NCBI GenBank assembly: GCA_015143295.1
Contig: CM026551.1
Location: 12,420,499-12,484,498, forward strand
DNA length: 64,000 nucleotides
Direction of reading: 5' to 3'
DNA from: Tetracentron sinense
Lineage: Eukaryota > Streptophyta > Magnoliopsida > Trochodendrales > Trochodendraceae
The notes under the pieces: model-generated
Seen by the model: only the letters and a program-made list of their open reading frames with translations
Told to the model about the DNA's origin: nothing
The model's database searches: none
Position numbers and translations under genes: made by a program
Part shown: piece after piece, positions 7,028 to 64,000 of the stretch
Position numbering within the stretch: position 1 is the first letter of the stretch
How the letters are laid out: the number at the start of each line of letters is the position of its first letter

Positions 7028-7032
7028 GATCT
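7028..7032. repeat. Target-site duplication, left (GATCT)
   Basis: GATCT directly precedes the LTR start TGTAGGGACC and recurs directly after the LTR end at 10117-10121. Confidence 0.85.
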
Positions 7033-7591: not shown

Positions 7592-7606
7592 TTATATTAT
7601 AAATAA
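7592..7606 (+). promoter_or_regulatory. Putative LTR TATA box
   Basis: TATTATAAATAAG lies in the LTR upstream of a leader-like, purine-rich stretch and is conserved in the other two LTR copies. This would be the U3 promoter if the element is read on the plus strand. There is no evidence of activity. Confidence 0.4.
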
Positions 7607-10116: not shown

Positions 10117-10121
10117 GATCT
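10117..10121. repeat. Target-site duplication, right (GATCT)
   Basis: Matches 7028-7032 exactly and abuts the ACA end of the LTR. Confidence 0.85.
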
Positions 10122-16230: not shown

Positions 16231-16580
16231 GAAAAATGCCAAGGAATTTTTGGTTTAAGAACGTGTTGTATTTTGCTTCCTTGATATTGCGATTTAGATT
16301 TTCCTCAGATAAGGTAAAATACATTTGTTCCAATTACTTGTTTTCCGTCAATTGTCTTTAGAAATGTGATTTTGTCCTATAGTTGGCTTTGGTATAATTT
16401 GCTTATTATAGATTTCTATTTTCCTCCAGGAGCACTATAACTTGTGAGAAGTTTGAGGTACTCTGTGGAGACCTTTTTGAGATATCTCTTATCCCTCTTA
16501 AAGAAGTGCTCAAGCATTCCGGTTTGAAGGTTGATGAGGTAGAACTGATAGGCTATGCCACTAGCGTGCCAAAGTTACAG

Positions 16581-18727
16581 GTCAATACCTACATTCTCTT
16601 ACTACATTATGGGACATAAACTACATTCTTTCATTTTTCGAAGGCATCTAAGCAATAATCATTTCTCACTTGGCTCATTCACTCAATTCTCTGAAAGAGA
16701 ATCAGACATGGAACCAGATAGTACTTCTCCAGAATTCACATGTTTCTTATTTAAATTTTTTTATATTATACACTGTGATTACTGATAAAAATAATAATTT
16801 GAATATTGAACTATTGTTGTAAGAATCAGTTTTCCCTCGTTCCACTTCAACTCTTCCTGGCTCCTGCTTTGGGTATTTTTGAAAAGTAACAATACTGCAC
16901 CACATTAGTACTTGATTTAATGCTATGCACAATTCTCAAGGATATTCAGGGTACCAATATGTATACTGTTGGACATGCAGTTGGGTCGGCTCCTACAGGT
17001 GTCTTCATTTGTGGCTTGATAAAACATCTTTGTCGTATTTGTAACAAGAAGCACTGCATGTTGGTGTTTAATGATTTTAGTCATTAGGGGATTTCCTTTT
17101 ATACATAATTAGTGGTCCATAAAAGGAAAATTGAAGAATGTATTGTATTATAAGACAAGATTTCAGTACAAGTAGCCTACTTGAAGCAGCGTTTTAAGCT
17201 GCATTCTCCAACTTTACCTTGAGGTCATGCACAATGTACTCCAATGAACTCTGTCATGGTTTTATCTCAAACCACTTGCTTCTTGTTGAGTGTAAAAGTG
17301 CATGTACGGGTTACATGAGGCCAGAATTTAATCAGCTGATATAAAAGATTTCTATACCTTTTGTGTGGTTCTAAATATCAATAACGACATGCAGGTTTCT
17401 CAATACAATACAATGCCTATACATTATAAAGGTTACACATTTAGAATGACAATTAATAAAAAATAGTTTTGATCTATACACATATCAATTAACCGAGGGA
17501 CTATGCACATGGATTCATTGATGCGGTTTTATGTGCCCTTTGCATAGGGTTCTGTATCAGCTTTATGTTCTTGCTGATGCTGTGTCACCTATACCTTCCC
17601 CCCACTTCATCCGTTCTCTCCTACACATGACATTACTGCGAGCACTAGGAAACATCCAAATCTGATTCTTATTGCTGGTATTGGTATTGGCATTCTTGGC
17701 GATATCATTATATGTGTTAATCATTTTCATGCACATCTGGTCCAGGAAAGAAAAATGCATCTCTCAAAGAAAGTGGTACGTATTTCAGATGCAATTTCAG
17801 ACATATTTTATGATGTCAAAATATTAGTATGCATTCTTTATGTTTGACAGATATATTTTGACCCTCAAAATTATTTCTTTTGTTAGATCAAGATACTTAA
17901 AAACTTTTGATCACTTTTTCCATCCATCTCATTTTTGGACATCTCCTTGTCCTTTTTAGAGCCTTCGACCTTTTTATCATAAACAATTTATCAAATAGAG
18001 CCAGAATGCACACCAACCTTTGCTGAGGAAAGTGATGACACCTTCTTCAGATTTCAGTGGTGAAAGCTACATCACCATGAAAACCAAATTGGATTCAATA
18101 TTGATGTCCTTTATTTATTATTGAATCAAAGAACCTTAGTTAACCAAAGCTTCGTTCATTGCATCAAATATTTGAAAAAGAGAGAGAAAACAACATAGAA
18201 TTTTAAGACCTCCTTTTACTATCCATTTTGTTTCATAATCTCCTCATTCTTTATTTTTCTTCCATCAATTTCTTTGAACTGGTAAAGCTGTATCTAACCC
18301 AAGTTTGGTTTTCAAGTGATACTATATATTTTCAAGTGATATTATATGACCGTTGTAGACACCTCATTTAGGATTTCTGGGATCCTTTTAGTCCACATCG
18401 ACCAACAACGTGAAATCCTTCACCATTATAAAAGTCCTGTACACTCCATTCTCAATTCAACTTGGAACCTATGGAGCTTTGAGACCTTGGCCACTTTGCA
18501 ACTTTGGAAGACTTTGCATACTTTTGTATCCACCACACTTGCGAAAATCCTAGTTTTAGCCTCGGTATGAATCAAAATAACAGTATCGAATGCCATATCG
18601 GTAAGTCCAAAACAGGAGGGGTGCGGAAACCCTATTTCTAGACTTTGCACACTTTTGTATCCACCACACTTTACAAAGATTTTGAAGTTTGTCTTTACTT
18701 ACGAGAGTGCAGATCTATTACTAGCAG
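16581..18727. other. Long intron-like stretch of copy B
   Basis: Lies between two HSP70-17 exons that are not adjacent in the family protein, so at least one exon is missing. It holds the receptor-kinase-like fragment at 17560-17775 and, at 18345-18620, a promoter-like segment (AGTCCACATCGACC, then CATTATAAAAG) followed by a TIR-like end (GTATCGAATGCCATATCGGT). Copies D, C and E contain the same stretch at 29820-32095, 49049-51264 and 62692-64000. Confidence 0.6.
17560..17775 (+). pseudogene. Receptor-like kinase transmembrane-segment fragment (possible)
   Basis: One frame reads ASTRKHPNLILIAGIGIGIL and, after a one-base shift, ISLYVLIIFMHIWSRKEKC. This pattern of a short polar stretch, a hydrophobic helix and then a basic stop-transfer resembles the extracellular border and membrane span of plant ALE2-type receptor-like kinases (family knowledge by recall). 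No kinase domain follows. The frame is broken and the piece recurs at 30810-31012, 50010-50197 and 63600-63770 with further damage. It could instead be chance similarity in non-coding DNA. Confidence 0.35.
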
Positions 18728-20530: not shown

Positions 20531-20661
20531 TTGTCATTATTGACAAATTGCTGGTCAAGTATCTTAGCTTGACTTTTTTGGGTTTTCTCTGGGCGATGTT
20601 TCTTCCATCGTTTGTATATTCTTTTTAATAAAATTTTCTTTTATTCTATCAAAAAAATAAA
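20531..20661 (+). mobile_element. 5'-truncated LINE tail in copy B intron
   Basis: Same insert as at 4073-4201. The 22-bp 5' junction patch (20531-20552) repeats 20693-20714 exactly, followed by GGTCAAG... and an A-rich end before AGTGAATAGTAG. Confidence 0.8.
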
Positions 20662-22326
20662 GTGAATAGTAGCACTCTGTGATAACCAAGAGTTGTCATT
20701 ATTGACAAATTGCTTTATTGAGCGTGTATTGGCTACCATGGTTTACAGTTGTAGATGTTCGATGACTGCATGACATTTAATGTGAGTTTCTAGTTATTAA
20801 ATCTGAGATGGCTAGAAATTGATAAAAGCAGAAGATACACAATTGAAAACTTGGAATGCAAAAGGCTATGGTTATTTCTTGGATATCAAACTTATATGAA
20901 TCACACAGCAAATAGGGTGGCTGGAATCCCTTCTCTTTCTAGCCAGGGGTCTTCAAGCTTGATCTATTATATTCTAGGGATGTTTAAAAAAAAAAAGTTG
21001 TACTTCAATTGTCATTTTGGTTCTTAACAATTAATTGTTCTTTTTTCCCTTTGCTTCAAGGAAACATCTGTTTCTGGTCCTTGTATTCTTTGTTTTTCCT
21101 ATTTTTTTTTCTTTGTTCTTCTCATCCGGGGTCTCCTGATCTTGCTAAGTTCTTGAACATTGACCAGCTAGGAATTGTGGACTATTATCTTCTTTAGGGC
21201 AATGTATTGGGCCTGCAGTAATTCCTTGGTATTCTAACAAGTCCATATCTTCAAAATCAGAACTTCACTTCAAATTGTAGGAGGATAGGGGCTTTCAATA
21301 AAGCATCTCGTGATTTAGTAGAACTTATGATAGTGCATATTTATTCAACTTGAAAATGTTGCAGAGTACAGATAGAGTGCTCGCACCACTGCAAAAGTAA
21401 GCCTATGTGGCAGCTCAAATGGGATGAAGTAAACTAACAGAATTGCTACTTGTCTTTAGTAAATTACCTAATGTACATGGTTTGCAAACTTTTCACAGAA
21501 TATATCTTTTAATATATTTCTCATTTTGGTTGCAACAAAACAAAATTCTTAAAAGTTAGCAGTCATGTCCCCGTTTTAGTATGTACCATACCAAATATGA
21601 TAAGGTAATTTTTCATGCATTTTTTTTTGCCGTTAACACAGATGTAAACATTTATGCTGGTCACATGAGCACTTAAATTTATTTTTTTTTGCGAGAATCA
21701 AGGGGATCTTTATTGCTTAATCGTCCATCCCAAACAGGGAGTTGCTAGTTGTTCATTTGTAAAAGGACCATCCTTCAACTACAATTTTACTAGTGAAATA
21801 GTTAAAACTTCTTGGTGTGCATATAAGTTGTTGATAAGTGTATGATATCCATTGCATAGAAAAACCGGCTTCCAATTATTGCCTATTTTAATAAAATTAT
21901 TTCTTCATCATATCATTTGCGAAAGTTTTTTAGTAGGTTATTTTCATTAGTAGAAGGGCTTTATTAGGTTAGTTTCCTGCAACATTGTGTATCAACTATT
22001 AAGTTTGGTACATTGCTTGGGTTAGGTTTATAGATAATAGCACTATTGATTTGACATTTCCTTTTTGAGCATTTGCAGGTTATAAGTGGTTGGGAGAAGA
22101 ACAAATCGTGGCTTCCCAAAACTAGAATAGATACATCTTTTCATCTAATTGGTCTTCTTTATATTTTTGTCTGCAATATGTTGAAATTATATTGATTTGG
22201 GGTTTGAGACTTTATAACAGAAAAATTCAAAATTAAAATCCTGCATTGAAATTTAATTTTTCAGGTTCTAAGTGATGCTGACAAGGTCAAGGATTGGTTG
22301 GAGGATAAGGAGGCTGAGCATAAAAA

Positions 22327-23498
22327 GTATGTGATCTCTTGGCCTGTATAGTTACTGTGTTAATCCGTCATGTTTTCTTCAAATTCTATACCCATTATGA
22401 TGCTTATCACTTATTAGTTGTTGAAAATAATAAAAGTAATTTCTCTATATTTTTTTTGATTTCTAGATGATTTTTGAACAATATACATGGATAAAATATG
22501 AAAGAATCTTTGAAAATTCAGATTTTATATAATTTTTTATGAGTCTTGAGAAGCAGGGTCTGCTTTTTAGCTGACCTAGGTGTCCCTGTGTTTAACCATG
22601 GTTATGCTTCACTACATTAAAAAAATTAGTAATTTTGTTTTTTTCTAAAAACCCTAGGAGATTAAACACAATTGATGGATGGTAAAAAAGAGGGGCTTGG
22701 ACCAATGAGTTCACCGGGGGGGGGGGTCTATTTTTCATTTCCCATTTTTTATTAAACATTTTTTTGGGGGTAAGGGGGGCCGCATGTGTGATGTGTCTTG
22801 CACGTGCAACATCTAACTAGCCTTATCTATTATCTATTACTTTAAAATAAAAGAGAATATAACAGGGGCGGTTAGTGAAATGTGTTCTTAGATTATTTTC
22901 ACTAATTTCTCCATGTCCCATATCTATTACCTAATAAGTCCCACTGTCCAAAGCCCCCACTGATTTCTTCTGCAAAGTCATTATGTGATGATGCAATGAA
23001 ACTTCATCATCGCTGATTCTTTTGTCAAAGAATCATCGTTGGCGCTTTCGTCGAAAAATCATCGTCGGCGCTTTCATCGGAAAATCATTGTTGGCGGCTT
23101 GGCGCTTTCATTTGAGAATATTAAAATGCTGAAATTTACCGCCAACAAAGATCACGAGAAGCAAGACCAGAGTTAATGTTTTGGAAGTTTTTTTAATTGA
23201 ATTTAATATTATCTCTGTAGAACACGAAAATGGTCTCTCACAGATAAGAACTAGATTTCTTTATGCTTCTTTTCTTCTTATTTATGGCTGCATTTCTTTA
23301 TGCTTCATTTCTTCTTATTTATGGAGGACTAATGGAGTTTTGTATTTCTCTTCTCAGCCCTGTTTAGATAGCAGAGAAGGGTATATGATTTTATGAATTT
23401 TCTTTCTCTACAACATTTATATCTTGTGGGTGAAGGGAGGAAGAAAAAGCTTGTGCTTTAATGGAGAAATAGAGTAGTTCAAGAGTTGGTGCTTTAGA
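22327..23498. other. Spacer downstream of copy B
   Basis: Collinear with 5845-7027. Holds the minisatellite-related inverted unit (about 22575-22690, partly deleted), a poly-G run near 22720 and the TCATCGTCGGCG motif repeats near 23030-23110. No gene recognised. Confidence 0.6.
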
Positions 23499-23503
23499 GA
23501 TCT

Positions 23504-26500
23504 TATAGGGACCCGACTTCTGATTACCAAGAGAATGTGTTATTAGTACCTAAAGGTGGTAAATATATGAGTTAATATTATAGCTCATATAGACATGAAA
23601 GGGGTGATCCTAAGAGACCCTAAGAATTTAGACTTCAGATCATAATATCCATCAATCGGGGCAGAATTTCTAAAGTCTGACATTAACAGAAATGACCTGT
23701 CTAATATAGAGAAGGGTTTGGAGAGATAAAAAAAATATATATTATTTTTTTAATTACTAATTATGATTAGTGAGTAATTAATTGATTAATCAGTGATTAG
23801 GATGTTAGTGATACTTTATTTTGAGATTAAGGGCTTAAGTCTCTAAATGTTAAGAGGGGGGGGGGGGGTTAAATTATAATTAAGGTAAGTTAAAGAAGTA
23901 TAATAAGGTTACTTTTTATTCTTAATTACAAGTAGTAAGTAACTAATTAACTAATTTGTGTTTAAAGAGGCTAATAATAACTAATTGGGATTTAAGGACT
24001 TAAGTGTAATATAGTATTAAGTAGAAGGGTTATATTATAAATAAGATATGTGTAAAGGCATGTGTTGGGTGGAGGTGAAACCACCCAACTGACTCAGCTT
24101 TAAAGTAAATCTGCTGTACATGTTTTGGAGAAGAGAAACATTAGTTCCTGTTGTACAGTAATAGTAACATTGAACAGTAACAAGCTTAGAAGGTTTGTAG
24201 AGAAGAAGAGAAGAAAGGAAAAGGAAAAGAAAGGAAAGGAAAGGAAAGAGAGAAGGAAAAGGGAAGAAAACAACAACAGAGGGATCTAGAGTGTGTCATC
24301 ACCACCTCTTAAGGTACTCTCAATTTCTTATCTTCATTTTTGATAGTTGACATGATGAATGAATTGGTAGGATTTGTCACCTTAAGGGTTTTGTTTATGA
24401 GCGGGAAGTTGCAGAATTCCCTGCACAACTCTAGAGATAGATGTTTATAAAAAGCTAGACTCAAGTTGTGGATCCCATGCTGTCAGAGGTTCATATGAAC
24501 CAGACCAAGGTTTTGGCTAAAGGTTGGAATTATCGGCCCTTATTTGGTATTTAAAATGTAATTAAGAACGGAAAAGATGTGTTTTACAAATTCTACATTT
24601 CTGAATGTTGTCTGTCTTTGGGGAAGATGATTCCCTAGTTAAAACCATTGGTTTCGTGCAAATTTTGGTGAGAAATTAGGAATGTAAGTCTACTTTTAAA
24701 TGAAACAACTTTCAGGTCCAAATCTTGAATATTGAATGAGTTATGGTTGAATGTTCCAAACAGACTCATTCTGGAAAACAGTTTCCAGCACTTGTTCTCG
24801 TTGGTCAAAACTCCTAATGAGCTATGGACATCATCAATTGTGCATAAATCATATGTTGTCTACAATATACGATCAGTGGAGATTCATATCAACTTGATTT
24901 CATCCCATTCAGAGCAATAGTTTAGAAGATATGAAGTGTGATAGGGTCTGTCTGCCCAAATGATTCAAATCAATGCTCTTGAGTCAATTGTACTTTGCTC
25001 ATTATGAATCCACACGTGCATAGATTGAAACAAACAATGAATAGTTCTTAAGGGCAAATCATAAATTAAGAGCATAAACTACGTAAAGGACATTAGGGGT
25101 ATAAAAGAAATTAAATAAACAAATTGGAAAAGGAATTTCTAAAGATGGGCAATTGTATTTTTTAAAGGAAAACTGATGGAGAAACAAGAGGGTTTTGGCT
25201 AAGGCTTGGGTGGTGTTTATCGACTGAGAAGGATTTGATCTTGATAAGGTAAGTACATTCTACTAGCTTACTTTGTAGATATAATTATGAATGTGATGTT
25301 TTGAATCCATGCATGTTGTATATTGTTATGAGCATACTTTGGAGATAGAATTATGTATTCATATTCAAATTTCATGACTATTATTACTTGGTATTGAAGC
25401 ATGATGATTAAGTATGCTCTATTGTTTAGACTTCATGATTGATCATTCATGCATGTCTACTAGCTTACTTTGTAGATATAATTATGAATGCGATGTTTTG
25501 AATCCATGCATGTTGTATATTGTTATGAGCATACTTTGGAGATAGAATTATGTATTCATATTCAAATTTCATGACTATTATTACTTGGTATTGAAGCATG
25601 ATGATTAAGTTTGCTCTATTGTTTAGACTTCATGATTGATAATTCATGCATGTCATGATTTCAATTTCAGTTTTAAGAATGCATGCTTATATAAGTGTTA
25701 ACATGAATTTGAAATGAAATGAAAATAGTTTATGCAAGACAAGTCTAAGATCTTAGTTCTAGGCTTCAAGGATCATGTCTAAATCTAGTTTATTAGGCTT
25801 TCAAGGATCAAAAATAATGATAATGCCAGACACAAGGGCTGGTTCAATGGAGTTGGGGAAATTGACATTTTATATATATATATATATATATATTATACTA
25901 TGACAGTAAAGCATGGCCGTTACCAAGTCAAGGCTCTAACTCCCGGCTCACAAGCATGTATCGAAGAGAGTTCAAGCAAGAACAAGAACAAGCAAGTTCA
26001 AGCAAGTATAATACCATGATTCACAAAAGGCAAGAACAAGAACAATATTGCATGATTTTACAAATATGCACACGACAAGAACCATGAGTTATGCATCAAC
26101 AAACATGTTTTAAAATGGCATGAAAAGTCATGTTTAAGTATTAAGTTCCTGCATGCATCATGATTATATTGTTTTAATTTCCATGTACGTTATGTCATGT
26201 TTATTATCCATTGTTAGCTATTGGTTTGTACTCGCAGAGTATCCCATACTCAATCGTACATTTTACGTCGGTAGGTATTGGCTTTGATAATCGTGGTTTC
26301 AGGTCATGGATTGAGAAAGTTTATTGCGAAGAATAGCAGTGTAGGGAACCTTAGGTGGATGCTAGAGAATTGGATGTTTGGCTTTACGAATAGGCTCTTG
26401 TGATCATGGAAAACTAAACAAGTATGTTTGCATGTATTTAGCTTTAGTAGTTGTTGGAATACTTCTATCAGGTATATAAAATTTAGCTTCCACTGTAGCA

Positions 26501-26591
26501 TGCCTTGTTAATTGCAGGATGGTTTGATAGGTCAGGTCAAGTCATAATCCAAAGTACCCTAAACTCCTAGGGGGCATTTTGGGGCGAGACA
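23504..26591 (+). mobile_element. Solo LTR, copy B
   Basis: 3088 bp, ends GGGGCGAGACA; the start reads TATAGGGACC (TGT mutated to TAT). Flanked by the same GATCT at 23499-23503 and 26592-26596 as copy A, and collinear with it throughout, including the 197-bp tandem pair (25259 and 25456) and a longer TA microsatellite at about 25872-25892. It keeps a block at about 24144-24174 (TTAGTTCCTGTTGTACAGTA) that copy A has lost. Confidence 0.85.
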
Positions 26592-27489
26592 GATCTAGTT
26601 TGAAATTGCAGCATTAATAAGACCAATAAACAATCAAGATTTACACTTTTACTCAAAAGAAAATCAAGAATTACTAAACAACATAGGTCAATCAACAATC
26701 CCACAATAATGAACTTTCAAATTTGATCGGGTGATTGTAATGGCAGTGAGAACTTTCACTAGCTTAGGAATTTTGACAAATATTCATTGAGATTTTCTTG
26801 TCAATTGAGGATTTTAAAGAAATTAATTAGGCTCAACAATGGTTATGAGTTAGACTTCAGTTTCGGTATAAACTTCGGTCGCTAAGGAAGTTGACACGTT
26901 TCGAGGAAGTTTAAGGAAGTCTAAAGAAGTTATGTAAAAATTAAAGAAATCTAGGAAACTTTAAGGAAACATTGGAAATCTAAGATGAAACTTTAGAAAT
27001 TCAATACTTAAGCATAAATACACATCTAGAAATCATTATATTACTGATGCAAGCATGTAGTACTCAAATGTGAGAATTATATTAAGTGACATGCGTTGTC
27101 TGCTTGTCTGAGCTGTAATTTTTTCTTGGTATTTCTCTGGATTGTCAATTTTTTAAAACTATATTTCATCTTCTTTGTCAAGTGAAGGGGTATGTATTCT
27201 TTTTTTTATTTTTCAATGATTATCCATGTTAATTGTTTTGGAAACCTAAAAACCTTATGAATGCACATTGAAGTCGATAAATTATTGAAATTCAATTTAG
27301 TTTCTAAACCTATTTCATTCTACAATTGATGAGCTCAATGTTTTTACAATACTGAATCAATATGTGAAGAGGAGGAGATGGGTAGTCACATAATTTTGAA
27401 TTTATGAAATACTATTAGGAAATTATCTGATTTTTTAAATATTACTAAAAAGTCATTATCGGCATAATATACTAATAACAAGATTATTA

Positions 27490-28345: not shown

Positions 28346-28802
28346 TGTTGGGATTGGTGCGGCAGCCTTGGACAGCAAGGTAAGGTTTGGTTTTGCAATA
28401 CAAAGGGCTGGTGGCTGTTGGGGGATTGTAAGGAGTGGCTGTTCTTTGGGAATCACTCTAATGGCATCACACCAAATCCAATCACTGGAGAATGCTTAAA
28501 AATATTTTCTTTTCATTCATTAAATTCATCAACTTACAATTTACAGCATAAATTATGTTTAAATGATGCAGTAAAAAATTAAGAATAGTAAACTAAAGTT
28601 TGTTTTGTTTTTATCGGTAAATAGCAAATATAATAAAAAATAAACGAAACTACAACAGTTTACAGAATGCAATGCATTGCTATAGTTGGCTTTGGTATAA
28701 ATATGCTTATTATAGATTTCTTTTTTCCTCCAGGAGCACTATAACTTGTCCGAAGTTTGAGGAACTCTGTGGGGACCTATGGGAGAAATCTTTTATCCCT
28801 TT

Positions 28803-29818
28803 AAGAAAAACACGAACACCCAAAGATCTTGGGTGGAAGAAGAAACAAGGAGGGAGATGGAGACAGAACATCAATAGGACTGTTGAAACCCAAAATTGTA
28901 GTGGGCATGCAATTCATAAGATAAAAAGCAGTCTGAAGGGCATCAGACAAAAAACGTTTAGGAACGTTCATGCTAAACGAATAAGCATGAGTGATTTCCA
29001 ACAGATGACGGTTCTTCCTCTCAGCAACACCATTTTGCTGGGGAGTACCAACACAAGTTGTCTGGTGGATAATCCCGTGATCGCGGAAGTAGGAGAAGAG
29101 AGTAGTAGACAGATACTCTCCATCATTATCAGAACGAAAGGATCTTTAACTTAACATCAAACTGGGTTTCAATCATTTTATGAAAAGATTGAAAAACAGA
29201 GCAAACATCACTCTTCTGTTTCAACAAGTAAACTCACGTTACTCTAGAGAAATCATCAACAAATATAACAAAGTAACGAAATCCACGAGAGGAAGTGATA
29301 GGAGCAGAACGTCACACATCAGGATGAACAATGGAAAAAGGTGAATTACTTATATTAAAATCAACATTTTTTTTACAAATTCACAAGTTTCACATTGAAG
29401 TTCAGACACAGAAACAGAAATAAAATACTGTGGAAACAGTTTCTTTAACATAAAAATGGATGGGTGGCCCAAACGTCTATGCCACTGCAACAACTGTACA
29501 ATGTTGTGATCACGACTACTACTACTACTAGGCCCATCGCGAACTTGCTGAACAGGAGAAGCCACCGGTGAGGAACTATCCAACAAGTACAATCCCCTCT
29601 CCTCATAGCCTCTACCAATCGTTTGTCTCGTCTCCAAGTCCTGAAAGACACAGTGAGAGGGAAAAAAGATGACACTACAATTCAAGGATTTGGTTAGGTG
29701 ACTGACAGACAAAAGGTTTAATTTGGTGACTAGTTTGTATAAAATTGTGGCCAAAATTCTTGCGGATAGACTGAAGAGGGTGGTGTGGGGGCTTATCAAG
29801 GCGCTTTTGTAAAAGGGA
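28803..29818. mobile_element. Captured copia-plus-LINE segment inside an HSP70-17 exon
   Basis: About 1.01 kb nearly identical to 45249-46260: minus-strand copia integrase-region sequence (28803-29735) followed by about 80 bp of plus-strand LINE reverse transcriptase (29737-29818; YKIVAKILADRLKRVV). It replaces about 100 bp of exon and donor site that are intact in copies B and E, so it is not a clean insertion. No target duplication. The minus-strand frame at 29350-29799 contains the copia pre-integrase HRRLGHPSIF and CETC motif. Confidence 0.85.
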
Positions 29819-30809
29819 TACCTACATTCTCATACTACATTATGGGACATAAAGTACATACTTTCATTTTTCGAAGGCATCTAAAGCTCTAAGCAATAAT
29901 CATTTCACACTAGCTCTCATTCACTCAGTTCTCTGAAAGAGAATCAGAAATGGAACCAGATAGTACTTCTCCAGAATTCATGTGTTTCTTATTTAGATTT
30001 TTCAGTATTATATACTGTGATTACTGATAAAAAAAAAAAATTGAATTTTGAGATATTGTTGCAAGAATCAGTTTTCCCTTGTACCCCTTCAAGAGGCCTG
30101 GCTCCTGCTTTGGGCATTTTTGAAATGTAACAATACTTCACCACATGAGTACTTGATTTAATGCTATGCCCAATTCTCAAGGACATTCAGGGTACCAATA
30201 TGTATACTGTTGGACATACAGTTGGGTTGGCTCTTACAGGTGTCTTCATTTGTGGCTAGATAAAATATCTTTGTCGTATTTGTAACAAGAAGCGCTGCAT
30301 GTTGGTGTTTACTGATTTTAGTCATTAGGGGAATTCCTTTGATACATAATTAGTGGTCCAGAAAAGGAAAATTGAAGAATTTATTATTCGACAAGATTTC
30401 AGAACACGTAACCTACTAGAAGCAGCGTTTTAAGCTGCATTCATGAACTTCGCCCTTGAGGTCATGCACAATGTACTCCAATGAATCTCTGTCATGGTTT
30501 TATCTCAACCACTTGCTTCTTGTTGAGTGTAAAAGTGTGCATGTATGGGTTACATTAGACCAGAATTTAATTAGCTGATATAAAAGATTTCTTTAGTTTG
30601 AGTGTGATTCTAAATTTCAATAACGACATGTAGGTTTTTCAATACAATAAAATGCACATACATTATAAAGTATACACATTAAGAATGAAAAAAATAGTCT
30701 TGATCTATACACATATATCAATTAACACAGGGACTATGCACATGGATACATTGATGCGGCTTTATGTGCCCGTTGCATAGGGTTGTTCTGTATCAGCTTT
30801 ATGTTCTTG

Positions 30810-31012
30810 CTGATGCTGTGTCACCTTTACCTTCCCCACTTCATCTGTCCTCTCCTACACATATGACATTACTGCGAGCACTGGGAAATATCCAAATCTG
30901 ATTCTTAACGTATTGGTATTGGCATCCTCAGCGTCATCATTATGTCTGTGTTAATAATTTTCATGTACATCTAGTCGAGGAAAGAAGAATGCATCTCTCA
31001 AAGAAAGTGGTA
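30810..31012 (+). pseudogene. Receptor-like kinase transmembrane-segment fragment, copy D (possible)
   Basis: Same piece as at 17560-17775. The best frame gives GIGILSVIIMSVLIIFMYI, then a stop, then SRKEECISQRK. The preceding ITASTGKYPNLILN is in another frame. Confidence 0.35.
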
Positions 31013-31449
31013 CGTATTTAGATGCAATTTCAGGAATATTTTATGATGCCAAAATATTAGTATGCATTCTTTATGTTTGACCAATATATTTTGACCCTCA
31101 ATGTTATATCTTTTGTTAGATCAAGATAATTAAAAACTTTTGATCACTTCTTCCATCCATGTCATTTTTGGACGTCTCCTTGTCCTCTTTAGAGCCTTCG
31201 ACCTTTTTGTGATAAACAGTTTATCAAATTAATAATCTCTTCAAGTGTCCCTGGACAAAACGATAAATAGAGCCAGAATGCATACCAACCTTTGCTGAGG
31301 AAAGTGATGACACCTTCTTCAGATTTCAGTGGTGAAAGCTACATCACCATGAAAACCAAATTGTATTCAATATTGATGTCCTTTATTTATTATTGAATCA
31401 AAGAACCTTAGTTAATCAAAGCTTCGTTCATTGCATCAAATCTTTGAAA

Positions 31450-31735
31450 AAGAGAGAGAAAACAACATATAATTTTTAGACGGCGAGGAGTCTGCAATGC
31501 ATGTAATCACCCTTGAAAAAGGTGATAATCTTTTATTTGAGCAACTTTTGTGTTTCGGTGTTTAAAACGGCAAAAATATGTTCATCCAAGATTCGAATTC
31601 TGATTTGCCCGCTAACAACTCAGCGCAACGTTTAAATGTGGAAAGAAACACATTTTGTTAATTTAAAGTGCGAAAATATTATTTTTTAACATATTCTGTC
31701 ATGTCTGAGCCATTCATCTCATGACACCTCATTTA
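31450..31735. other. Segment private to copy D
   Basis: Between collinear flanks, about 250 bp (ACGGCGAGGAGTCTGCAATG onward) replace the corresponding stretch of copy B (about 18200-18345). Nothing recognised. Confidence 0.5.
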
Positions 31736-32507: not shown

Positions 32508-32752
32508 GAAACAAAGATTACTTGCCCGTTGATGATGGGATTAGTAATGCATCCAACTCCAATGTAGAAAAGCAAAGTAGCATGGATCCTGATACAAAAG
32601 AAACTGAAGAAGCGGACATTTAGCTAGCTTTCACCGAAACAAAGATTACTTGCCCGTTGATGATGGGATTAGTAATGCATCCAACTCCAATGTAGAAAAG
32701 CAAAGTAGCATGGATCCTGATACAAAAGAAACTGAAGAAGCGGACATTTAGA
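32508..32752 (+). repeat. Tandem duplication of about 125 bp within the copy D exon
   Basis: GAAACAAAGATTACTTGCCC starts near 32508 and again near 32637. Both copies run to the GAAGCGGACATTTAG stretch. Only copy D has it. The join carries about 12 bp (CTAGCTTTCACC) of sequence not found at the other end. Confidence 0.85.
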
Positions 32753-34733: not shown

Positions 34734-36535
34734 AGGTAATCAATATTCCGTTTTAATCATTTCTTTGTTTAGGTTTTCAAGGTTTCCATCGGGTTATTTT
34801 ATCTTTTCTGGGATTTGGAGGAATAATTTCTTATTTTCTTCTTTACTGATCTGTTTATCTTGACTTTTTCTTTTTGTTGCTAGCATTGTTCCTCATACCA
34901 AGTTGAATCATCCGAGGAGATTGAAAAAAATTTACCGGGCAGGAACGTCAATCCTTTATTGAGTAGCTTGACTAAGTTGGCCTTCATGTCTGCCTCCCAG
35001 GGCTTAGTCTCTTCCAATCACTTAAATTCTAATCTGTTGTTATCAAATGTATCAGGTGCAAGAGTGGTTGTAATTGTATACTGATGGCGAAGATGCATCT
35101 GCGACTGAGTTTCAAGAATGCCTAGATTTGTTAAAAACGATTGGTGACCCAATATTTTTTAGGTCGGTTCTTAAGTTAATGTGTTACAAAGGCAAATTTT
35201 TTAGGTGAGAAAATTTGTACCAATGATGACTTATGTAATGCCAGACTGAACGAGCTTACAGCAAGGCCGACAACATCTGAACATGCTCGTGGATATCTTG
35301 GCAAGCTGCTACATGTATTTGTAATAGTGAATAGTAGCACTCTTTGATAACTAAGGGTTGTCATTATATTCATAAACTGCTTTATTGAGCTTGTGTATGC
35401 TACCATGGTTTACAGTTGTAGATGTTCAATTATTGCGTGACATTTAATGTGAGTTTCTAGTTATTAAATCTTAGATGGCTAGACATTAATAAAAGCAGAA
35501 CATACACAATTGAAATCTTGGAATGCAAAAGGCTAGGTTTATTTCCTTGATATCAATCTTATAAGTATCACACAACCAATAGGGTGGCTGGAATCCCTTT
35601 TACAACAGTGGCCTTAACAAACAATAGAGGTAACAAAGCGTACAATATGAAAAGATTCTAATATGATATTATGACCGCGTTAAAGGAAAAAAATTATAGA
35701 GGGGACAAGGGAGTCCCCTGTCTTCAAGCTAGATCAATTATTCTAGAGATTTTTTTTTCAATGTTGTACTTCAATTATCATTTTGGTTCTTAACAATTAA
35801 CTCTTCTTTTTTCCCTTTGCTTCAAGGAAACATCTGTTTTTGGTCCTTGTATTCTTTGTTTTTCCTCTTTTTTTATTTATTTATTCTTCTCATCTGGGGT
35901 CTCCTGATCTTACCATGTTCTTAAACATTGACCAGCTAGGAATTGTGGACTATTATCTTCTTTAGGGCAATGTATTGGGCTGGCACTAATTCCTTGGCAT
36001 TCTAACAAGTCCACATCTTCAAGATCAGAACTTCACTTCAAATTGTAGGAGGATAGGGGCTTTCAATAAAGCATCTCGTGATTTAGTAGAACTTACGATA
36101 GTTCATATTTATTCAACGTGAAAATGTTGCAGAGTACAGATATAGTGCTCGCACCACTGCAAAAGTAAGCCTATGTGGCAGCTCAAATGGGATGAAGTAA
36201 ACTACAGAATTGCTACTTGTCTTTAGTAAATTACCTAATGTACATGGTTTGCAAACTTTTCACATAATATATCTTTTAATATATTTCTCATTTTGGTTGC
36301 AACAAAACAAAATTCTTAAAAGTTAGCAGTCATGTCCCCGTTTTAGTATGTACCATACCAAATATGATATGGTAAATCTTCGTGCATTTTTTTTTGCCGT
36401 TAACACAGATGTAAACATTTATGCTGGTCACATGAGCACTTAAACTTATTTTTTTGCGAGAATCAAGGGGATCTTTATTGCTTAATCGTCCATCCCAAAC
36501 AGGGAGTTGCTAGTTGTTCATTTGTAAAAGGACCA

Positions 36536-37843: not shown

Positions 37844-40405
37844 CTCCCCCTAAAGCTGGAGCATAAACATTAAGTATGCCCAGCTTGACAGTAATATCCT
37901 GAAGAATAGCAGGGCCAACCGGCTTGGTGAAGATATCAGCAAAGTTGTTGAGATGACGAAACATGTTGAAGAGATAAAGAACAATCCCGGGCTTTCTCAC
38001 AAAGAAAGTGAATATCAACCTCAATGTGCTTTGTCCGCATATGAAGCATAAAATCTGAGGCAATCTTTGCAGCAGCCTCGTTACCACAATATAAGGACAA
38101 GGTCTTTAATAGGAAACTCTAACTCAAAGAGGAGAGAATGAAACCATAAGAGTTCACAAGTGCCATGAGCAAGTGCATGATATTCTGCTTTGACACTAGA
38201 CCGAGAAATCACGGGTTGCTTTTTGCTCTTCCACGCAACTAAGTTGCCTCCAAGGAAAAAGCACAATAGCTCAGGTGGAATGATGGTGCCATGAGCAAGT
38301 GCACGACCCACAAGACGCTGATAGACATGAGGATCAAAAAGAAGATCACTCTCACTATCAAGCAAAGAGAGTTTCAGATCCATGAGAGAAGTAGCGGGTT
38401 TATATCCACTCATACTAGTATCGCTGAGGTGGTCAAGAGAATACTTCCGTTGTGACAGAAAAATTCTCTTCTTAGATCGAGCAGTCTCCAAGACCAAGAA
38501 AGTACTTCAGATGACCTAGATCTTTGACATCAAAGGTACGCCCCAGCTCATGCTTAGCATGAAAGATGAATGAGGAGTCATCGCTAATCAAGATGATATC
38601 AACATATACCAGAAGAATAGTGCGGCCTGAGGTGTCAGAATGGATGAAAACTGTATGATCAGAGTGACATCGCTGGAAGACTCCCCCTGAAGCAGGAAAC
38701 TAGGAGGGGAGGGGGATCCATATACACCTTCTCGGTGAGATGCCCATTAAGAAAAACATTCTTGATGTTTAATTGATAGAGAGGCCAACTTTGATTTGCT
38801 GCAGGAGAGAGGAGAACACAAATAGAAGTTAGTTTGGCCACAGGCGCAAAAGTAGCATCATAGTCAAGCCCATAAGTCTGAGTAAAGCCGCAGGCGACAA
38901 GACAAGCCTTATACCGAGCAACACTGTCATCAGAGTTATGTTTGATGGTGAAGACCCAACGACTCGCCCACAGGTTTCTTCCCAGCTGGACCATATGCCT
39001 AGTCTGATTAGACTGAAGAACATTCATTTCATCAACCATAGCACTCTTCCACTCAGGATGAAGAAAAGCATCACGAACGGACCGAGAAATAATCACAGAG
39101 TCAATTGCTGAAACGAAGGCCTGATACGAGGGAGATACAGCCTGATAACAAATATACTTGACAAAGGGGTAAAAAGTAATACAGGAGCGAACACCCTTGC
39201 GATGAGCAATAGGTATCTCAAGATTAGAAGCAATAGGAGTAACAATAGCAGGAGAATGAACAAGAATAATGGAGGGTAAAGAAGTACCTCGAGGAGTGGC
39301 CTGCGGGGAAGATTGTGGTAGAGGCGCATCGGAGGAGCAACCATGTGGTTGGCAGCGAGAGTATGTGAGAAACTCTTTCTGCTATGGGAGTTCCCCTACA
39401 ATAGGTAAAGGCATAGAAACGGGAGAAATAAAAGGTAAAGGCACAAAGACAGGTGGCACCGTAGGAGCATGAGAGAAAAAAGGGACTGTCTCAAAAAAAT
39501 TAACATCCAAAGAGACAAACAAACGACGAGATTGAGGGTCATAACACCGATAGACTTTAGAGGTGCTAGAGTAACCAACAAAGATACATCGAATGACCTT
39601 ATCATCCAATTTCTAATGATTGGGCGAAGATCCTAGACAAAGCAAGTATAACCAAACACCCATGGCTCAATGGGAAAAATAGGAACTTGAGGGGAAAGAA
39701 GCTGATTGGTGAGAGGCCATCAAGAAAGCAAGAAAGAGCTCGATTGATGAGAAAACATGCAGTGAGAAGAGCCATGGACTAATATGGCTTAGACACCTAC
39801 ATGCCTCGCAACAAAGAACGAGTGACACAAACTAAATGACAATTCTTCCGCTCAACAACGTCATTTTGTTAAGGCGTGTAAGGACAGGTAAGCTGATGGG
39901 CAATCCCATGAGTTTGAAGAAACTGGACAAAAGGTGCATAGAGATACTCACCGCCATTATCAGAACAAAGGGACTTAATAAGACCACCAAACTGGGTAAC
40001 AATCATAGCATGCAATTTTTGAAATTCTGAGAACACCTCATCCTTAGACTTAAGAAGGTACACCCAAGTAGCTCGAGTGTCATCAATAAAAGTAATATAA
40101 TAAAGAAAGCCATCACTCGAGGGAACAGAAGATGGTCCCCAAACATCCGAGTGAACTAACTGAAAAATAGAACGACATAAACAGTACGAACATGTGTTTA
40201 GTAAGCACACAAGTATCACATTGAAAACTAGATGAAGAACAAATTTTACTAAAAATAGGAATCAAAGAGCATAAAGTCTTAGATCCAATATGCCCATGCT
40301 TGGCATGCCATAAATGATAAGTATCAAGAGTAGCATCAACAGAAAAAAGAAAAACAGAAATAGTAGCAACAGTAGAGGAGACTCGATCAGGAGTATAATC
40401 GTTGT
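37844..40405 (-). pseudogene. Ty1/copia polyprotein remnant, copia-1
   Basis: Minus-strand order: pre-integrase (about 40340-40210; LDTYHLWHAKHGHIGSK, then CDTC), integrase core (40219-39869; VHSDVWGPS, ITFIDDTRATWVYLLKSKDE, CSDNGGEY), integrase C-terminus (39609-39382), reverse transcriptase (39096-38500; EMNVLQSNQT, ARYKACLVACGFTQTYGLDY, NIKNVFLNG), RNase H (38300-38000; SRSSVKAEYHALAHGTCELL). The catalytic YVDD box reads YVDI: one Asp codon is missing near 38585-38600. Several frameshifts and stops separate the pieces. Gag and protease are absent at the 5' end. The element copies via RNA in the cytoplasm when intact; this one is dead. Confidence 0.85.
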
Positions 40406-42962: not shown

Positions 42963-43204
42963 TGTAGAGACCTGCTTTTCTATTAAATTATTATGATGAT
43001 TTTTTTGAAATTTGTGCTAAAGTTTTCATGATAAATAGTGGAATTCCTTAAGGTTTGAAGGAGGAAGAAGAAGAAGAGAAAGAGGAAGAGAGTAGAGAAC
43101 TTAATGTTTCTTCTCTATCATATTCTATTAATAGGTAGGGTTTTAAGTAGGGTTCCTCTAATTACAAGTGTGCCCCTAATTACAAGAATGCTTAATATTC
43201 TACA
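42963..43204 (-). mobile_element. Copia-2 LTR (outer boundary uncertain)
   Basis: The right boundary is supported: ...TTCTACA followed by CTCCCCCTCAAG, the complement of a polypurine tract. An inverted partner TGTAGA occurs at 42963, giving 242 bp. A start nearer 43057 (TTTGAAGGAGGAAGAAG) is also possible, since many plant copia LTRs begin with TGTTGAAGGA-like sequence. 3' LTR of a minus-strand element. Confidence 0.55.
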
Positions 43205-46172
43205 CTCCCCCTCAAGCTGGTATGTAGATATTACAAATGCCGAGCTTGCCAATAATCTTAGTAAATTGTGTATGACCAAGACCCTTGGTCAAAATATCAG
43301 CAAATTGGTCACTGGTCTTCACAAATGAAATCCAGATGAGATTTGTCTTCAACTATTCCTTGATGAAGTGTCTATCCACCTCAATGTGTTTGGTTTTGTC
43401 GTGTTGAACCGGATTGTGAGCAATGCTGATTACCACCTTGTTGTCACAATGCAACTTCATAGGACCTTGAATGGAGAGGTTCAGGTCGGCCAAGAGAATG
43501 CAAAGCCACAAAATCTCACATAATCAATGAGCCATCAACCGGAACTTTGCCTCTGCCCTAGATCTGGCTACTACAGACTTTTTGTTACTTCTCCATGTGA
43601 CTAGATTACCACGAATAAACGTACAGGAACCAAAAGTGGAGCGCCTATTTGAAACAGATCCAACACAGTTTGCGTCAGTGAAAACTTTAATCTGGAGATT
43701 ACCGGTACGAGCATACAACAGTCTTTGTCCTGGAGCAGACTTGAGAAACCTCAGAATCCTGTACACCGCATCCAAGTGGGTTGAGGTAAGAGTATGCATG
43801 AACTAGCTCACCACACTGACAGCATACGCAATATCAGGACGAGTGAGTGAGAGATATATCAATCTCCCTACAAGTCTCTGATATCTCCCTACTTCGATAA
43901 TCTTCTCACCAGTGGCTTCACCAAGCTTCATCCTATGATGCCAGTCTCATGTAGGAGGTCAATGACATATTTACGCTGTGATATAAAGATACCTTTTATG
44001 GACCTGGCAACCTCAATACCCAAAAAATATCTCAACTGACCTAGATCCTTGATTTCAAATTCCTTTGCAAGTAGGCCCTTCAAGTTATGCATTTCCCCCT
44101 GGTCATCTCCAGTAAGCACAATGTCATCTATATAAACAATGAGTGCAGTCACCTTCTTGCCGTTGTGCTTGATAAACAAAATATAGTCAGCTTGGCTTTG
44201 TTTGTAGTCATTTCTAATCATGGCTGGGCGAAACCTTTCGAACCAAGCCCTAGGAGACTGCTTAAGCCCATACAAGGCCTTCTTCAGTCTACGCACCTTC
44301 CCTTCAGCTACAGGAAACTTGAGCCCTGGAGGATGTTTCATGTACACTTCTTCTAAGTCATCATGGAGAAATGCATTCTTCACATCGAATTGCATAAGTG
44401 GTCAATTCAAGTTGGATGCAAGAGATAAGAGAACTCTTATTGAGTTCATCTTTTCTACAGGAGCAAACGTCTCCTGGTAGTCTATGTCATATGTCTGTGT
44501 ATACCCTCTTGCAATGAGTCTGGCTTTGTATCTTTCCACTGACCCATCAGACTTATGCTTCACAATGAACACCCATTTGCATCCTACCGGAACTTTGCCT
44601 CTTGGTAAATCAACCATTTCCTATGTCTTATTCTTTTCCAGAGCCTGCATTTCTACTTCAATTGCTTCTTTTCATTCTAACTTAGAAAGAGCATCTGCAA
44701 CACTGCGAGGAATAGACACAGAAGACAAAGTCATGACAAAGGTACGATACGAGGGAGATAGTGAACCATACGACATAAAGTTTGAAATAAGGTGTTGTGT
44801 GCTAGAGCGAACACCTTTCCTATGAGCAATAAGAAGGTTAAAATCAATAAGGGAGGTATGGATATTACCTGAATTTGAGAAGTATTCATGGCAGGGCATA
44901 TGAGGGTCTTCTTTGTTAGTATTCGTCATCCAAACCCCACGATTTGGATTCCTGGAGAAAACCTGCACCTCACTTTGTTTTTCTCCATTTACATTTTGGT
45001 CCCCTCCATCTATGTTTTCATCATTTTCCCCATTACCAGTTATCGGAAAATCCCCTGGATTAATAGAAATAGGTAAAGGAGAAGAAGACATCTCTTCAAC
45101 ACCAATGGTCTCCCCCTGAAGAGAAGTCTCATTCGCAGAATAAAAGGGGAATGGTAACACTTATACCCTTTCTGACTCGAAGCATACCCCAAAAATAAAC
45201 ACTTGAGTGCCTTAGAATCAAGTTTGGTACGCGCCGATTTGTCAATATGCACAAAACACGAACACCCAAAGATCTTGGGTGGAAGAAGAAACAAGGAGGG
45301 AGATGGAGACAGAACATCAATAGGACTTTTGAAACCCAAAATTGTAGTGGACATGCAATTCATAAGATAAAAAGCAGTCTGAAGGGCATCAGACAAAAAA
45401 CGTTTAGGAACGTTCATGCTAAACAAAAAAGCACGAGTGATTTCCAACAGGTGATGGTTCTTCCTCTCAGCAACACCATTTTGCTGGGGAGTACCAACAC
45501 AAGTTGTCTGGTGGATAATCCCGTGATCGCGGAAGTGAGAGAAGAGAGTAGTAGACAGATACTCTCCACCATTATCAGAACGAAAGGATCTTTAACTTAA
45601 CATCAAACTGAGTTTCAATCATTTTATGAAAAGATTGAAAAATAGAGCAAACATCACTCTTCTGTTTCAACAAGTAAACTCACGTTACTCATGAGAAATC
45701 ATCAACAAATATAACAAAGTAACGAAATCCACGAGAGGAAGTGATAGGAGCAGGACGTCACACATCAGAATGAACAATGGAAAAAGGTGAATTACTTATA
45801 TTAAAATCAACATTTTTTTTGAAAATTCACAAGTTTCACATTGAAGTTCAGACACAGAAACAGAAATAAAATACTGTGGAAACAGTTTCTTTAACATAAA
45901 AATGGATGGGTGGCCCAAACGTCTATGTCACTGCAACAACTGTACAATGTTGCGATCACGACTACTACTACTGCTAGGCCCATCACGAACTTGCTGAACA
46001 GGAGAAGCCACCGGTGAGGAACTATCAACAAGTACAATCCCCTCTCCTCATAGCCTCTACCAATCGTCTGTCTCGTCTCCAAGTCCTGAAAGACACAGTG
46101 AGAGGGAAAAAAGATGACACTACAATTCAAGGACTTGGTTAGGTGACTCACAGACAAAAGGTTTAATTTGGT
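43205..46172 (-). pseudogene. Ty1/copia polyprotein remnant, copia-2 (pol part)
   Basis: Minus-strand order from the right: PR/pre-integrase linker (46172-45900; TKLNLLSVSHLTKSL, ETRQTIGRGYEERGLYLL, LLQWHRRLGHPSIF... CETC motif partly out of frame), integrase with breaks (45600-45450), integrase C-terminus (45447-45040; RFLSDALQTAFYLMNCM, PPKIFGCSCF), reverse transcriptase (44617-43928; CKWVFIVKHKSDGS, DVKNAFLHDDLEE, YGLKQSPRAWFERF, YIDDIVLTGDD) and RNase H (43799-43524; TGNLQIKVFTDANC). Unlike copia-1 the YIDD catalytic box is intact, but frameshifts and stops break the frame. The 5' part of this element continues at 48305-48983 beyond a nested LINE. Confidence 0.85.
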
Positions 46173-48304
46173 GACTAGTTTGTATAAAATTGTGGCCAAG
46201 GATCTTGCGGATAGACTGAAGAGGGTGGTGGTGGAGGCTTATCAAGGCGCTTTTGTAAAAGGGAGGGAGCTGGTCGATGGTGTCTTGATTGCTAGTGAGT
46301 GTATTGATACTCGGATTAAAGAAGGGTCAGGTGGTCTTGTCTGCTAGGTAGACATGGAAAAGGCATATGACCATGTGGATTGGGGGTTTTTAGGAGAGAT
46401 GATCATCTTTATGGGGTTCGGGGAGAGATGGATTAGGTGGATGAAGGGGTGTGTTTGGTCGTCTCATTTCTCTATTCTAGTGAATGGGTGCCCGCATGGA
46501 TTTTTTCCTAGTTCTGGAGCTTTGCGATAGGGCTGCCCTTTATCTCCTTTTCTTTTCATCATTGTGGCAGAAGCTTTTAGTAAACTCCTTTCAAAGGCAG
46601 AAGATTTGGAGATGATTAAGGGTTTTCAGGCGGGACCGGAGGGGCCTATTATTTCACATCTTCAGTATACAGATAATACCATTCTCTTTCTAGAGGCGGA
46701 TGAGGCCTTATCCAGATTGAAAATTAATATTGCCAAGAGTAAGTTGATAGGGGTGGGGGAGGTGGAGGGGGGTTTTTTAGAAAGAAGTGCTCGAAGTTTG
46801 GGCTGCAGTTTGGAGTCCTTGCCAATCAGGTATCTGGGATTGCCTGTAGGAGCTAACCCGCGATCGATGGCCATTTGGGATCCAGTGGTGGAGAGAGTTG
46901 AATAGAGATTAGCGGGTTGGAAGTAAAGATTTTTGTCCTTAGGAGGGCGGATAACTTTGATAAAAAGTGTGTTGGCGAGTCTCCCCATTTTTCAAATGTC
47001 CTTATTTAAGCCTCCTCGGGCGGTGATAATGAGGTTGGAGAAACTTCAGAGGGATTTTTTGTGGGGGGGCAGGGGAGACTCCGGGAAATTGCATTTAATG
47101 AAGTGGGATTGGGTGACGAGACCACAGGAATTTGGAGGCTTGGGTTTCAGAAGAATCAAGTGTATGAACAAAGCTTTATTGGGAAAGTGGATTTGGCGCT
47201 TTAATATGGAAAAGACGACGTTGTGGAGGAGGGTAATTAAGGACAAATTCGGGGTGTCTAGGGGTGACTGGGATCCAAAGCCGGTGAAGAAGTCTTATGG
47301 AGTAGGAGTTTGGAAAGGGGTCATGACATCTATGGTTTCGACTCAGGAGTTCTTGAAATTCAGGGTAGGGAATAGAAGCAGGGTGCGTTTCTGGGAAGAT
47401 GACTGGTTGGGGGAAGGGAAGCTGTGTACGAGATTTCCAAATCTCTATAGATTGGTGGTGAGGAGAGAGGTGAAGGTGCAGGACTGTTATGAGGTTCATG
47501 ATGGAGAGGTTCGATGGGGTCCGCGGTTTAGGAGGGATAATTTTGGGGAAAGAGAATTGAGAGATTGGTTGGAGCTACAAAGACTTCTCACGGTGTGTGT
47601 GATTCACCGCGATATGGAAGATAGACGAAGATGGGAAGGGGGTGCCGAGGAGGAGTTTTCAACAGCTCATTGCTACTCGATGCTTTGGAAGGAGGGGGGG
47701 GGGGGGGGGGAGGAGCAACAATGCTTTTCAGAAGATTTGGAAACTTAAGATTCCCTCGAAGGTACAGGCTTTCATTTGGGCTGCCTCTCTAAACAAAGTT
47801 CTCACCGTGGATCACTTAAGGCATAGGGGAATGGTCATTCCCAATAGATGTGTAATGTGCAGGCAAGCGGAGGAGAATGTACATCATCTTTTCCTTCATT
47901 GCCCACGGTTAAGTGCAGGGATTAATTTCTTTTGCGAATCAGTTTGATTTATTTGGGCCTTTTTGGGATGAGCTGGGTTTCGCAAGGGGGTTTGGGGGAA
48001 GTGGTGTTGGGATGACCCAAAGGTGTGTTCAACAGGAAAGGGAATGAGGTGTGGAAGATGCTTCCGGCGGCGATTTGTTGGGATGTATGGAGGGAACGAA
48101 ATAGCAGAATTTTTGAAGATAAGGAAGAGTCGATTCCCAAAGTCATCCTAAAGATCGGGTGATTGTTATTTTCTTGGTATTCTGTCCTAGTTGATTTTAA
48201 GCAGGTTCATTGGTCTGATTTTTTTTTTCTGGGCGATGTTCCTTGCACGTTTGTATATTCTTGCCTCTTTAATAAAATGTTCTTCTTATCTATAAAAAAA
48301 AAGA
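46160..48304 (+). mobile_element. LINE (L1-type) nested in copia-2, 5'-truncated
   Basis: Plus-strand reverse transcriptase starting inside the RT domain (YKIVAKDLADRLKRVV, YQGAFVKGRELVDGVLIASE, MEKAYDHVDWGFL, PHGFFPSSG) through the thumb (GGRITLIKSVLASLPIFQMS, EFGGLGFRRIKCMNKALLGK) to the C-terminal zf-RVT-type region (RFWEDDWLGEG, then HRGMVIPNRCVMCRQAEENV with HLFLHC), and ending in GGCGATG...TTTGTATATTC and an A-tail at about 48293. The endonuclease and ORF1 are missing. Disabled by stops (near 46347, 46529, 46905, 46925), by the catalytic box YTDN in place of YADD (46673-46684), and by a 17-base G run at 47694-47710 that shifts the frame. Inserted opposite to copia-2. Confidence 0.85.
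47694..47710 (+). repeat. Poly-G homopolymer, 17 bases
   Basis: The homologous site in the other LINE (minus strand near 58545) has a much shorter G run followed by GAGGAGGG. Here the expansion breaks the LINE frame. Confidence 0.8.
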
Positions 48305-48983: not shown

Positions 48984-49048
48984 NNNNNNNNNNNNNNNNN
49001 NNNNNNNNNNNNNNNNNNNNNNNNNNNNNNNNNNNNNNNNNNNNNNNN
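48984..49048. other. Assembly gap (65 N)
   Basis: Sequence is unknown here. Left of it is copia-2; right of it is the intron of HSP70-17 copy C, starting just downstream of where its STITC exon should be. Confidence 0.99.
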
Positions 49049-62541: not shown

Positions 62542-64000
62542 GAGCACTATAACTTGTCAGAAGTTTGAGGAACTCTGTGGGGACCTATGGGAGAAATCTT
62601 TTATCCCTTTTAAAGAAGTGCTCAAGCATTCCGGTTTGAAGGTTGATGAGGTGGAACTGATAGGCAATGCCACTCACGTGCAAAGTTACAGGTCAATACC
62701 TACATTCTCATACTACATTATGGGACAAAGTACATACTTTCATTTTTCGAAGGCATCTAATGCTCTAAGCAATAATCATTTCACACTAGCTCTCATTCAC
62801 TCAGTTCTCTAAAAGAGAATCAGAAATGGAACCAGATAGTACTTCTCCAGAATTCATGTGTTTCTTATTTAGATTTTTCAGTATTATATACTGTGATTAC
62901 TGATTAAAAAAAAATTGAATATTGAGATATTGTTGTAAGAATCAGTTTTCCCTTATGCCCCTTCAACTCTGCCTGGCTCCTGCTTTGGGCATTTTTGAAA
63001 TGTAACAATACTTCACCACATGAGTACTTGATTTAATGCTATGCACAATTCTCAAGGACATTCAGGGTACCAATATGTATACTGTTGGACATACAGTTGG
63101 GTCGGCTCTTACAGGTATCTTCATTTGTGGCTAGATAAAATATCTTTGTCGTATTTGTAACAAGAAGCACTGCATGTTGGTGTTTAATGATTTTAGTCAT
63201 TAGGGGAATTCCTTTGATACATAATGATTTTAGTCATGCACAATGTACTCCAATGAATCTCTGTCATGGTTTTATCTCAACCACTTGCTTCTTGTTGAGT
63301 GTAAAAGTGTGCATGTATGGGTTACATTAGACCAGAATTTAATTAGCTGATATAAAAGATTTCTTTAGTTTGAGTGTGATTCTAAATTTCAATAACGACA
63401 TGTAGGTTTTTCAATACAATAAAATGCACATACATTATAAAGTATACACATTAAGAATGAAAAAAATAGTCTTGATCTATACACATAGATCAATTAACAC
63501 AGGGACTATGCACATGGATACATTGATACGGCTTTATGTGCCCTTTGCATAGGGTTGTTCTGTATCAGCTTTATGTTCTTGCTGATGCTGTGTCACCTTT
63601 ACCTTCCCCACTTCATCCGTCCTTACTGCGAGCACTGGGAAATATCCAAATCTGATTCTTAACGTATTGGTATTGGCCTCCTCAGCGTCATCATTATGTC
63701 TGCGTTAATAATTTTCATGTACATCTGGTCGAGGAAAGAAGAATGCATCTCTCAAAGAAAGTGGTACGTATTTCAGATGCAATTTCAGGAATATTTTATG
63801 ATGCCAAAATATTAGTATGCATTCTTTATGTTTGACCAATATATTTTGACCCTCAATGTTATATCTTTTGTTAGATCAAGATAATTAAAAACTTTTGATC
63901 ACTTCTTCCATCCATGTCATTTTTGGACGTCTCCTTGTCCTCTTTAGAGCCTTCGACCTTTTTGTGATAAACAGTTTATCAAATTAATAATCTCTTCAAG
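62542..64000 (+). pseudogene. HSP70-17/HYOU1-like pseudogene, copy E (runs off the window)
   Basis: Exon 62542-62691 reads STITCQKFEELCGDLWEKSF and KEVLKHSGLKVDEVELIGNA with good AG/GT borders, but one base is missing in the final codons (GTGCAAAG where copy B has GTGCCAAAG), shifting the frame before the donor. The following intron matches copy D after its insertion (29820 onward), with a deletion near 63230 (about 160 bp removed), and includes the receptor-kinase-like piece at 63600-63770. The copy continues beyond the window. Confidence 0.8.

Follow-up and report, generated by a model that had tools for sequence, protein, structure and literature searches.

A copia/LINE segment in an HSP70-like exon of Tetracentron sinense, most probably a repair patch at a DNA break

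An HSP70-like exon in a stretch of 64,000 nucleotides of the Tetracentron sinense genome (the window) is interrupted by a 1012-bp segment that crosses the border between a copia element and a LINE nested in it. We consider it highly probable that this insert is a repair patch of ectopic sequence at a DNA break, and we count the capture of a free fragment within this reading. In this reading one event explains the anatomy. Repair of a double-strand break had been proposed in the original prediction, and it is supported by a donor still in place, ends internal to two elements, a loss of 78-85 bp, near-blunt joins and the absence of a target-site duplication (TSD) or poly(A) tail at the insert. 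Since 64 kb contain the donor, the recipient and two paralogous sites without the filler, the copy relationship, its direction, the pre-insertion state, the lost bases and the structure of the joins are legible without a second genome. The features are listed in Table 1.

Table 1. Coordinates of the insert, its donor and the uninserted paralogues within the window.
Feature	Position	Strand	Basis or remark
Paralogue A, the other copy of the patched site without insert	16493..16595	+	
HSP70-like exon (recipient, B), retained 5' part, truncated by the insert	28734..28802	+	AG acceptor read at 28732-28733
AAGA at the left join	28803..28806	+	either filler foreign to the donor or exon sequence that follows a 2-base deletion (TA)
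Insert, copied copia/LINE segment, 1012 bp	28807..29818	+	self-comparison of the window, alignment
copia/LINE border inside the insert	29717..29718	.	46162/46163 in the donor
Right flank beyond the join, colinear with paralogues A and C	29819..31481	+	self-comparison
copia, approximate extent	43524..46162	-	integrase-side frame and RVT_2; Pfam-tested part leaves out 43524-43802
Donor, or closest copy in the window, inside copia with nested LINE	45253..46264	+	self-comparison
LINE, 5'-truncated, nested in copia, terminal A run	46163..48302	+	homology to second LINE, RVT_1
Paralogue C, uninserted exon end, splice donor and intron start	62605..62706	+	splice donor at 62692-62693

When the window is compared with itself, the insert pairs with a donor of equal length at 97% identity. 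BLAST reports E = 0 and 96.9% over 1013 columns, and the base-by-base alignment contains 29 mismatches and two 1-base gaps. The first and the last A of the insert can each be assigned to the recipient as well. Both copies have the copia/LINE border in common, so the predicted near copy across this border is real. The coordinates given for it, 28803-29818 and 45249-46260, were shifted: the donor begins about 4 bases further to the right, and the insert proper at 28807.

The donor is the only near copy of the insert within the window. Many dispersed copies with these ends, which the original prediction named as its refutation, are thus not seen inside the window. Weaker matches are found to another copia-like stretch (39836-40112, 67%) and to another LINE (60122-60013, minus strand, 78%). 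In addition, we listed colinear unmatched segments of 40-4000 bp bounded by plus-strand HSPs (100 bp or more, 80% identity or more), with up to five other matches for each. Among the 15 segments listed, only this insert has a full-length near-identical match outside the sister repeat units; 3 of the others have a LINE tail in common.

The donor lies 15.4 kb downstream of the insert, in direct orientation. On the minus strand, 45040-45591 is a single open frame with a retroviral-type SH3-like domain (PF25597, 4e-18, above the cut-off), while the integrase core matches of this piece are below the Pfam cut-off. A reverse-transcriptase piece of the same copia is found at 43928-44401 (minus strand, RVT_2, 2e-38), and beyond the LINE the copia resumes with a protease-side piece at 48316-48591 (minus strand, Pol_BBD, 1e-10). 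Homology of the nested LINE to a second LINE in the window starts at 46163, and the A run near 48302 is the end of the LINE. Its RVT_1 match of 20.3 bits is below the Pfam cut-off of 29.6. Among the eight peptides that were compared with Pfam one by one, two are without a match, a 55-residue LINE piece and the truncated exon described below.

Both ends of the donor fall inside coding sequence. The left end is inside the integrase-side frame of copia, which crosses the left end of the insert without a stop, and the right end is inside the reverse-transcriptase frame of the LINE, where a stop follows some 85 bases on and homology to the second LINE continues. At the 45-kb locus both elements continue outward on both sides, whereas at the insert neither does, and this makes the direction of copying clear, with the 45-kb locus source-like and the insert derived. 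The template may be 45253-46264 itself or a near-identical copy elsewhere.

A few further observations concern the donor element. Reading the surrounding copia by eye suggests that a few target codons were lost when the LINE at 46163-48302 inserted. No TSD was accepted for this LINE, as the shared words of at least 7 bases (7-8) occur only some 600 bases past the A run, too far beyond it. Dating the copia by its LTRs was abandoned, since 40400-46163 against 48226-48983 gave no convincing direct repeat (two weak hits, E 0.15). The element may extend past a gap of 65 N at 48984-49048, which separates the copia from a fourth copy of the sequence found downstream of the HSP70-like exons. That copy starts at 49054, about 70 bases to the right of the position that corresponds to the patched site, and the exon is not seen there.

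At the recipient site, the direction of the event and the ancestral state are clear because paralogues C and A keep the uninserted sequence. The unfilled exon, which the original prediction would have sought in other genotypes, is thereby found twice in the window itself, as paralogues. The last stretch of the recipient exon before the join is identical to C base for base through 28802 (CCCTTT), and the intron restarts at the A of 29818, which is shared with the donor and corresponds to intron base 5 of C. The splice donor and the 3' end of the exon fall in the stretch that the recipient has lost. The predicted setting, an HSP70 exon without its end and its splice donor, agrees with this and with the HSP70 match of the uninserted paralogues; only the size of the loss, given as about 100 bp, has to be reduced to 78 or 85 bp.

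The identity of the exon rests on the two intact copies. As isolated exons they pass the Pfam cut-off of 20.6 (27.1 and 24.4 bits), exon A matching positions 291-343 and exon C positions 291-338 of PF00012. Against solved structures, exon A has matches among DnaK, HSP70 and BiP chains, the lowest E-value being 1.3e-5. The truncated exon, taken as a 40-aa peptide including insert residues, has no Pfam match; it holds only about 23 exon residues, with which a match is hardly possible. At 28621-29151 the frame of the truncated exon passes the left join without a stop and runs on through about 110 codons of antisense copia, seemingly by chance.

Which of the two losses applies depends on how the left join is read. 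If AAGA is filler, 85 bp are lost (62611-62695 of C); if the exon is read through AAGAA with a 2-base deletion, 78 bp are lost (62618-62695 of C). If paralogues C and A are taken to represent the site before the insertion, the overlap between recipient and donor is 1 bp, one A, at each join, and from the base composition of the window an overlap of at least one base has a probability of about 0.47 per join. The microhomology of four bases, AAAA, that had been proposed at the left join is ruled out by the comparison with these two paralogues, which leaves the single A common to each join. No TSD was found at the joins, where the longest of the best five common words has 5 bases and stands away from the joins, and neither insert end carries a poly(A) or poly(T) tail.

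A donor sequence that is still present, target loss without a TSD, and joins with near-zero homology and possibly a small filler, all seen here, are the features of filler DNA. The features of a retrotransposon insertion, LINE or LTR, are missing: the ends lie inside coding frames, and no TSD or poly(A) was found. The claim that this cannot be a normal transposition is supported, since the ends lie within two different elements and target sequence has been lost.

Next, we studied the age of the insertion. Alignment of donor and recipient, proposed in the original prediction for this purpose, gives 29/1009 differences (2.87%) between insert and donor, compared with 71/3638 (1.95%) between the flanks of the recipient (B) and paralogue C (Fisher P 0.085). 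The two flanks taken separately diverge from C by 2.09% and 1.70%. For transversions the values are 7/1009 and 35/3638 (Fisher P 0.57), while transitions are more frequent between insert and donor (22/1009 versus 36/3638, P 0.006). By transversions, insert and donor are no further apart than the B-C flanks. This must be so for an insertion later than the split of B and C, and the insertion does postdate this split. The excess of transitions could come from the deamination of methylated transposon DNA, where C-to-T change would be faster, or from another donor copy.

With the second LINE as outgroup, changes are suggested on both sides in the LINE part, as read by eye: GG to AA near 29755 in the insert and T to A at 46202 in the donor. 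A donor-side G to A near 46235 is less sure, with a gap close by. A signature of error-prone copying was considered and rejected. There are five adjacent mismatch pairs where 0.8 are expected (P 0.0015), yet ordinary unit-to-unit alignments in the window show similar excesses (e.g. 8 against 1.07 and 11 against 3.92 expected), so mismatch clustering is uninformative on repair.

The anatomy suggests the following course for a repair patch. A double-strand break would have occurred in the HSP70-like exon, and some 80 bp of target would have been lost at it. About 1 kb of filler would then have been synthesised on an ectopic template, the copia with its nested LINE, by SDSA or by polymerase-theta-type end joining, and end joining with almost no homology would have closed the break. 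Some points speak against this reading. Insert and donor are in total somewhat more diverged than the B-C flanks, the transitions being the cause, and the joins share one base each, while increased microhomology accompanies insertions in tobacco.

Within the repair reading, the filler could instead be a free DNA or cDNA fragment that was captured by end joining, either transposon DNA that was broken or extrachromosomal, or the cDNA of a readthrough transcript. Copying and capture cannot be separated from the junctions alone. The near-blunt joins with 1-bp overlap and the possible 4-base filler suit end joining. Further, the plant work, in the part we draw on, reports donors close by as well as one from a different chromosome, and argues that some cases involve free fragments (PMC3289645), and the human class 2 templated insertions are, as far as that account goes, partly ascribed to RNA templates (PMC5110952). 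On the other hand, the sole near copy that the window contains has the same orientation and stands 15.4 kb away, a proximity that favours a chromosomal template, and poly(A) is not seen at the insert. Capture is a variant that we hold to be possible, though somewhat doubtful.

Replication template switching (FoSTeS/MMBIR), or a larger duplication that was trimmed on both sides by deletions, would also place a nearby segment in direct orientation among repeated units, as is seen here. Template switching commonly leaves a few bases of microhomology, but each join here shares a single base. Trimming would require two or more additional events after which the flanks of one exon were still colinear, and the divergence from paralogue C is similar in the two flanks. 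This makes either route unlikely. That a mobile chimeric element with these same ends transposed into the exon is very improbable, given ends within integrase and reverse-transcriptase coding sequence, a target that lost bases with no TSD or poly(A) found, and a single near copy within 64 kb. An assembly error might be suspected in a repetitive region with an N gap, but it is the least probable explanation, as 29 sites and two gaps separate the insert from the donor, so that one sequence has not been placed twice, and the flanks are both colinear with paralogue C.

Filler DNA at breaks in plants has reportedly been treated by Gorbunova and Levy 1997, Salomon and Puchta 1998 and Wicker 2010. 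The kind of event is already described in plants and vertebrates, and the insert adds a new and clean case that causes little surprise.

In maize, filler at repaired breaks of p2/p1 was copied from nearby sites and reaches up to 131 bp in the loci listed (PMC2686159). At I-SceI-induced breaks, the insertions reported together with target loss measure 127-677 bp in tobacco and 80-534 bp in Arabidopsis, and in tobacco they are accompanied by increased microhomology at the joins (PMC3289645). The same account holds two candidate pathways to be hardly separable by junction sequence, nearby donors suggesting SDSA and other inserts being free fragments (PMC3289645). Our case resembles the plant filler of these accounts in the ectopic nuclear sequence, the target loss and a donor that is sometimes nearby (PMC2686159, PMC3289645). 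It differs in that the insert, with 1012 bp, is longer than the sizes given there, crosses the border of a nested transposon and has less microhomology at its joins than in tobacco.

In vertebrates, repair-mediated duplications described as intrachromosomal and closely linked, of at least 50 bp and up to 619 bp, were found by exploiting the repetitive structure of the genomes and are ascribed to SDSA (PMC2671141). Our insert is likewise a closely linked intrachromosomal copy found through repeats, but it is longer than the 619 bp given there and comes from a plant. The human class 2 templated sequence insertions, as characterised in PMC5110952, have no TSD and no poly(A), show microdeletion, microhomology or added bases at the joins, and are ascribed largely to RNA templates from distant loci. 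The insert is similar in lacking TSD and poly(A) and in the loss of target bases, whereas its near copy is only 15.4 kb away.

The case illustrates how break repair can scatter pieces of transposons without transposition, and an annotator could mistake such a patch for a new element. General views are unchanged by it. A more far-reaching reading is that the segment at the copia/LINE border is captured recurrently as a patch, with transposon-rich DNA of the repeat region repeatedly templating repair in neighbouring units. We regard this as highly improbable; if it were true, units outside the window would hold patches derived from this donor stretch or from those next to it.

The exon most likely belongs to a duplicated gene fragment, and the patch is probably damage to a relic, as judged from the sequence. 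If the original prediction implied that a working HSP70 gene was hit, this is not upheld: as far as the Pfam scans show, what was hit looks like a single-exon relic, and paralogue C is one base short of A near the exon end. The scans covered the three plus-strand frames of 1501-46000 and 49051-64000, and in these frames HSP70 matches occur only at exons A and C, on which ground a working gene was rejected. In long frames these known exons scored 19.3 and 15.7 bits, below the cut-off of 20.6, so short or diverged exons could be missed. One long frame compared with solved structures gave two hits only (E 0.94), neither of them HSP70.

The three HSP70-like exon copies accompany long repeated units at 2525-10623, 18984-27099, 51538-57921 and 60271-64000, the first two being 8.1 kb at 96.8% identity. 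Three units contain a LINE 3' tail of 127-130 bp with an A-rich end (53070-53199, 20532-20660 and 4074-4200), and the corresponding site is empty in the unit at 35323-35328. In contrast to the insert, the tail was inserted without clear target loss. In addition, the window contains an exact direct duplication of 116 bp, at 32508-32623 and 32636-32751, with 12 bases between the copies.
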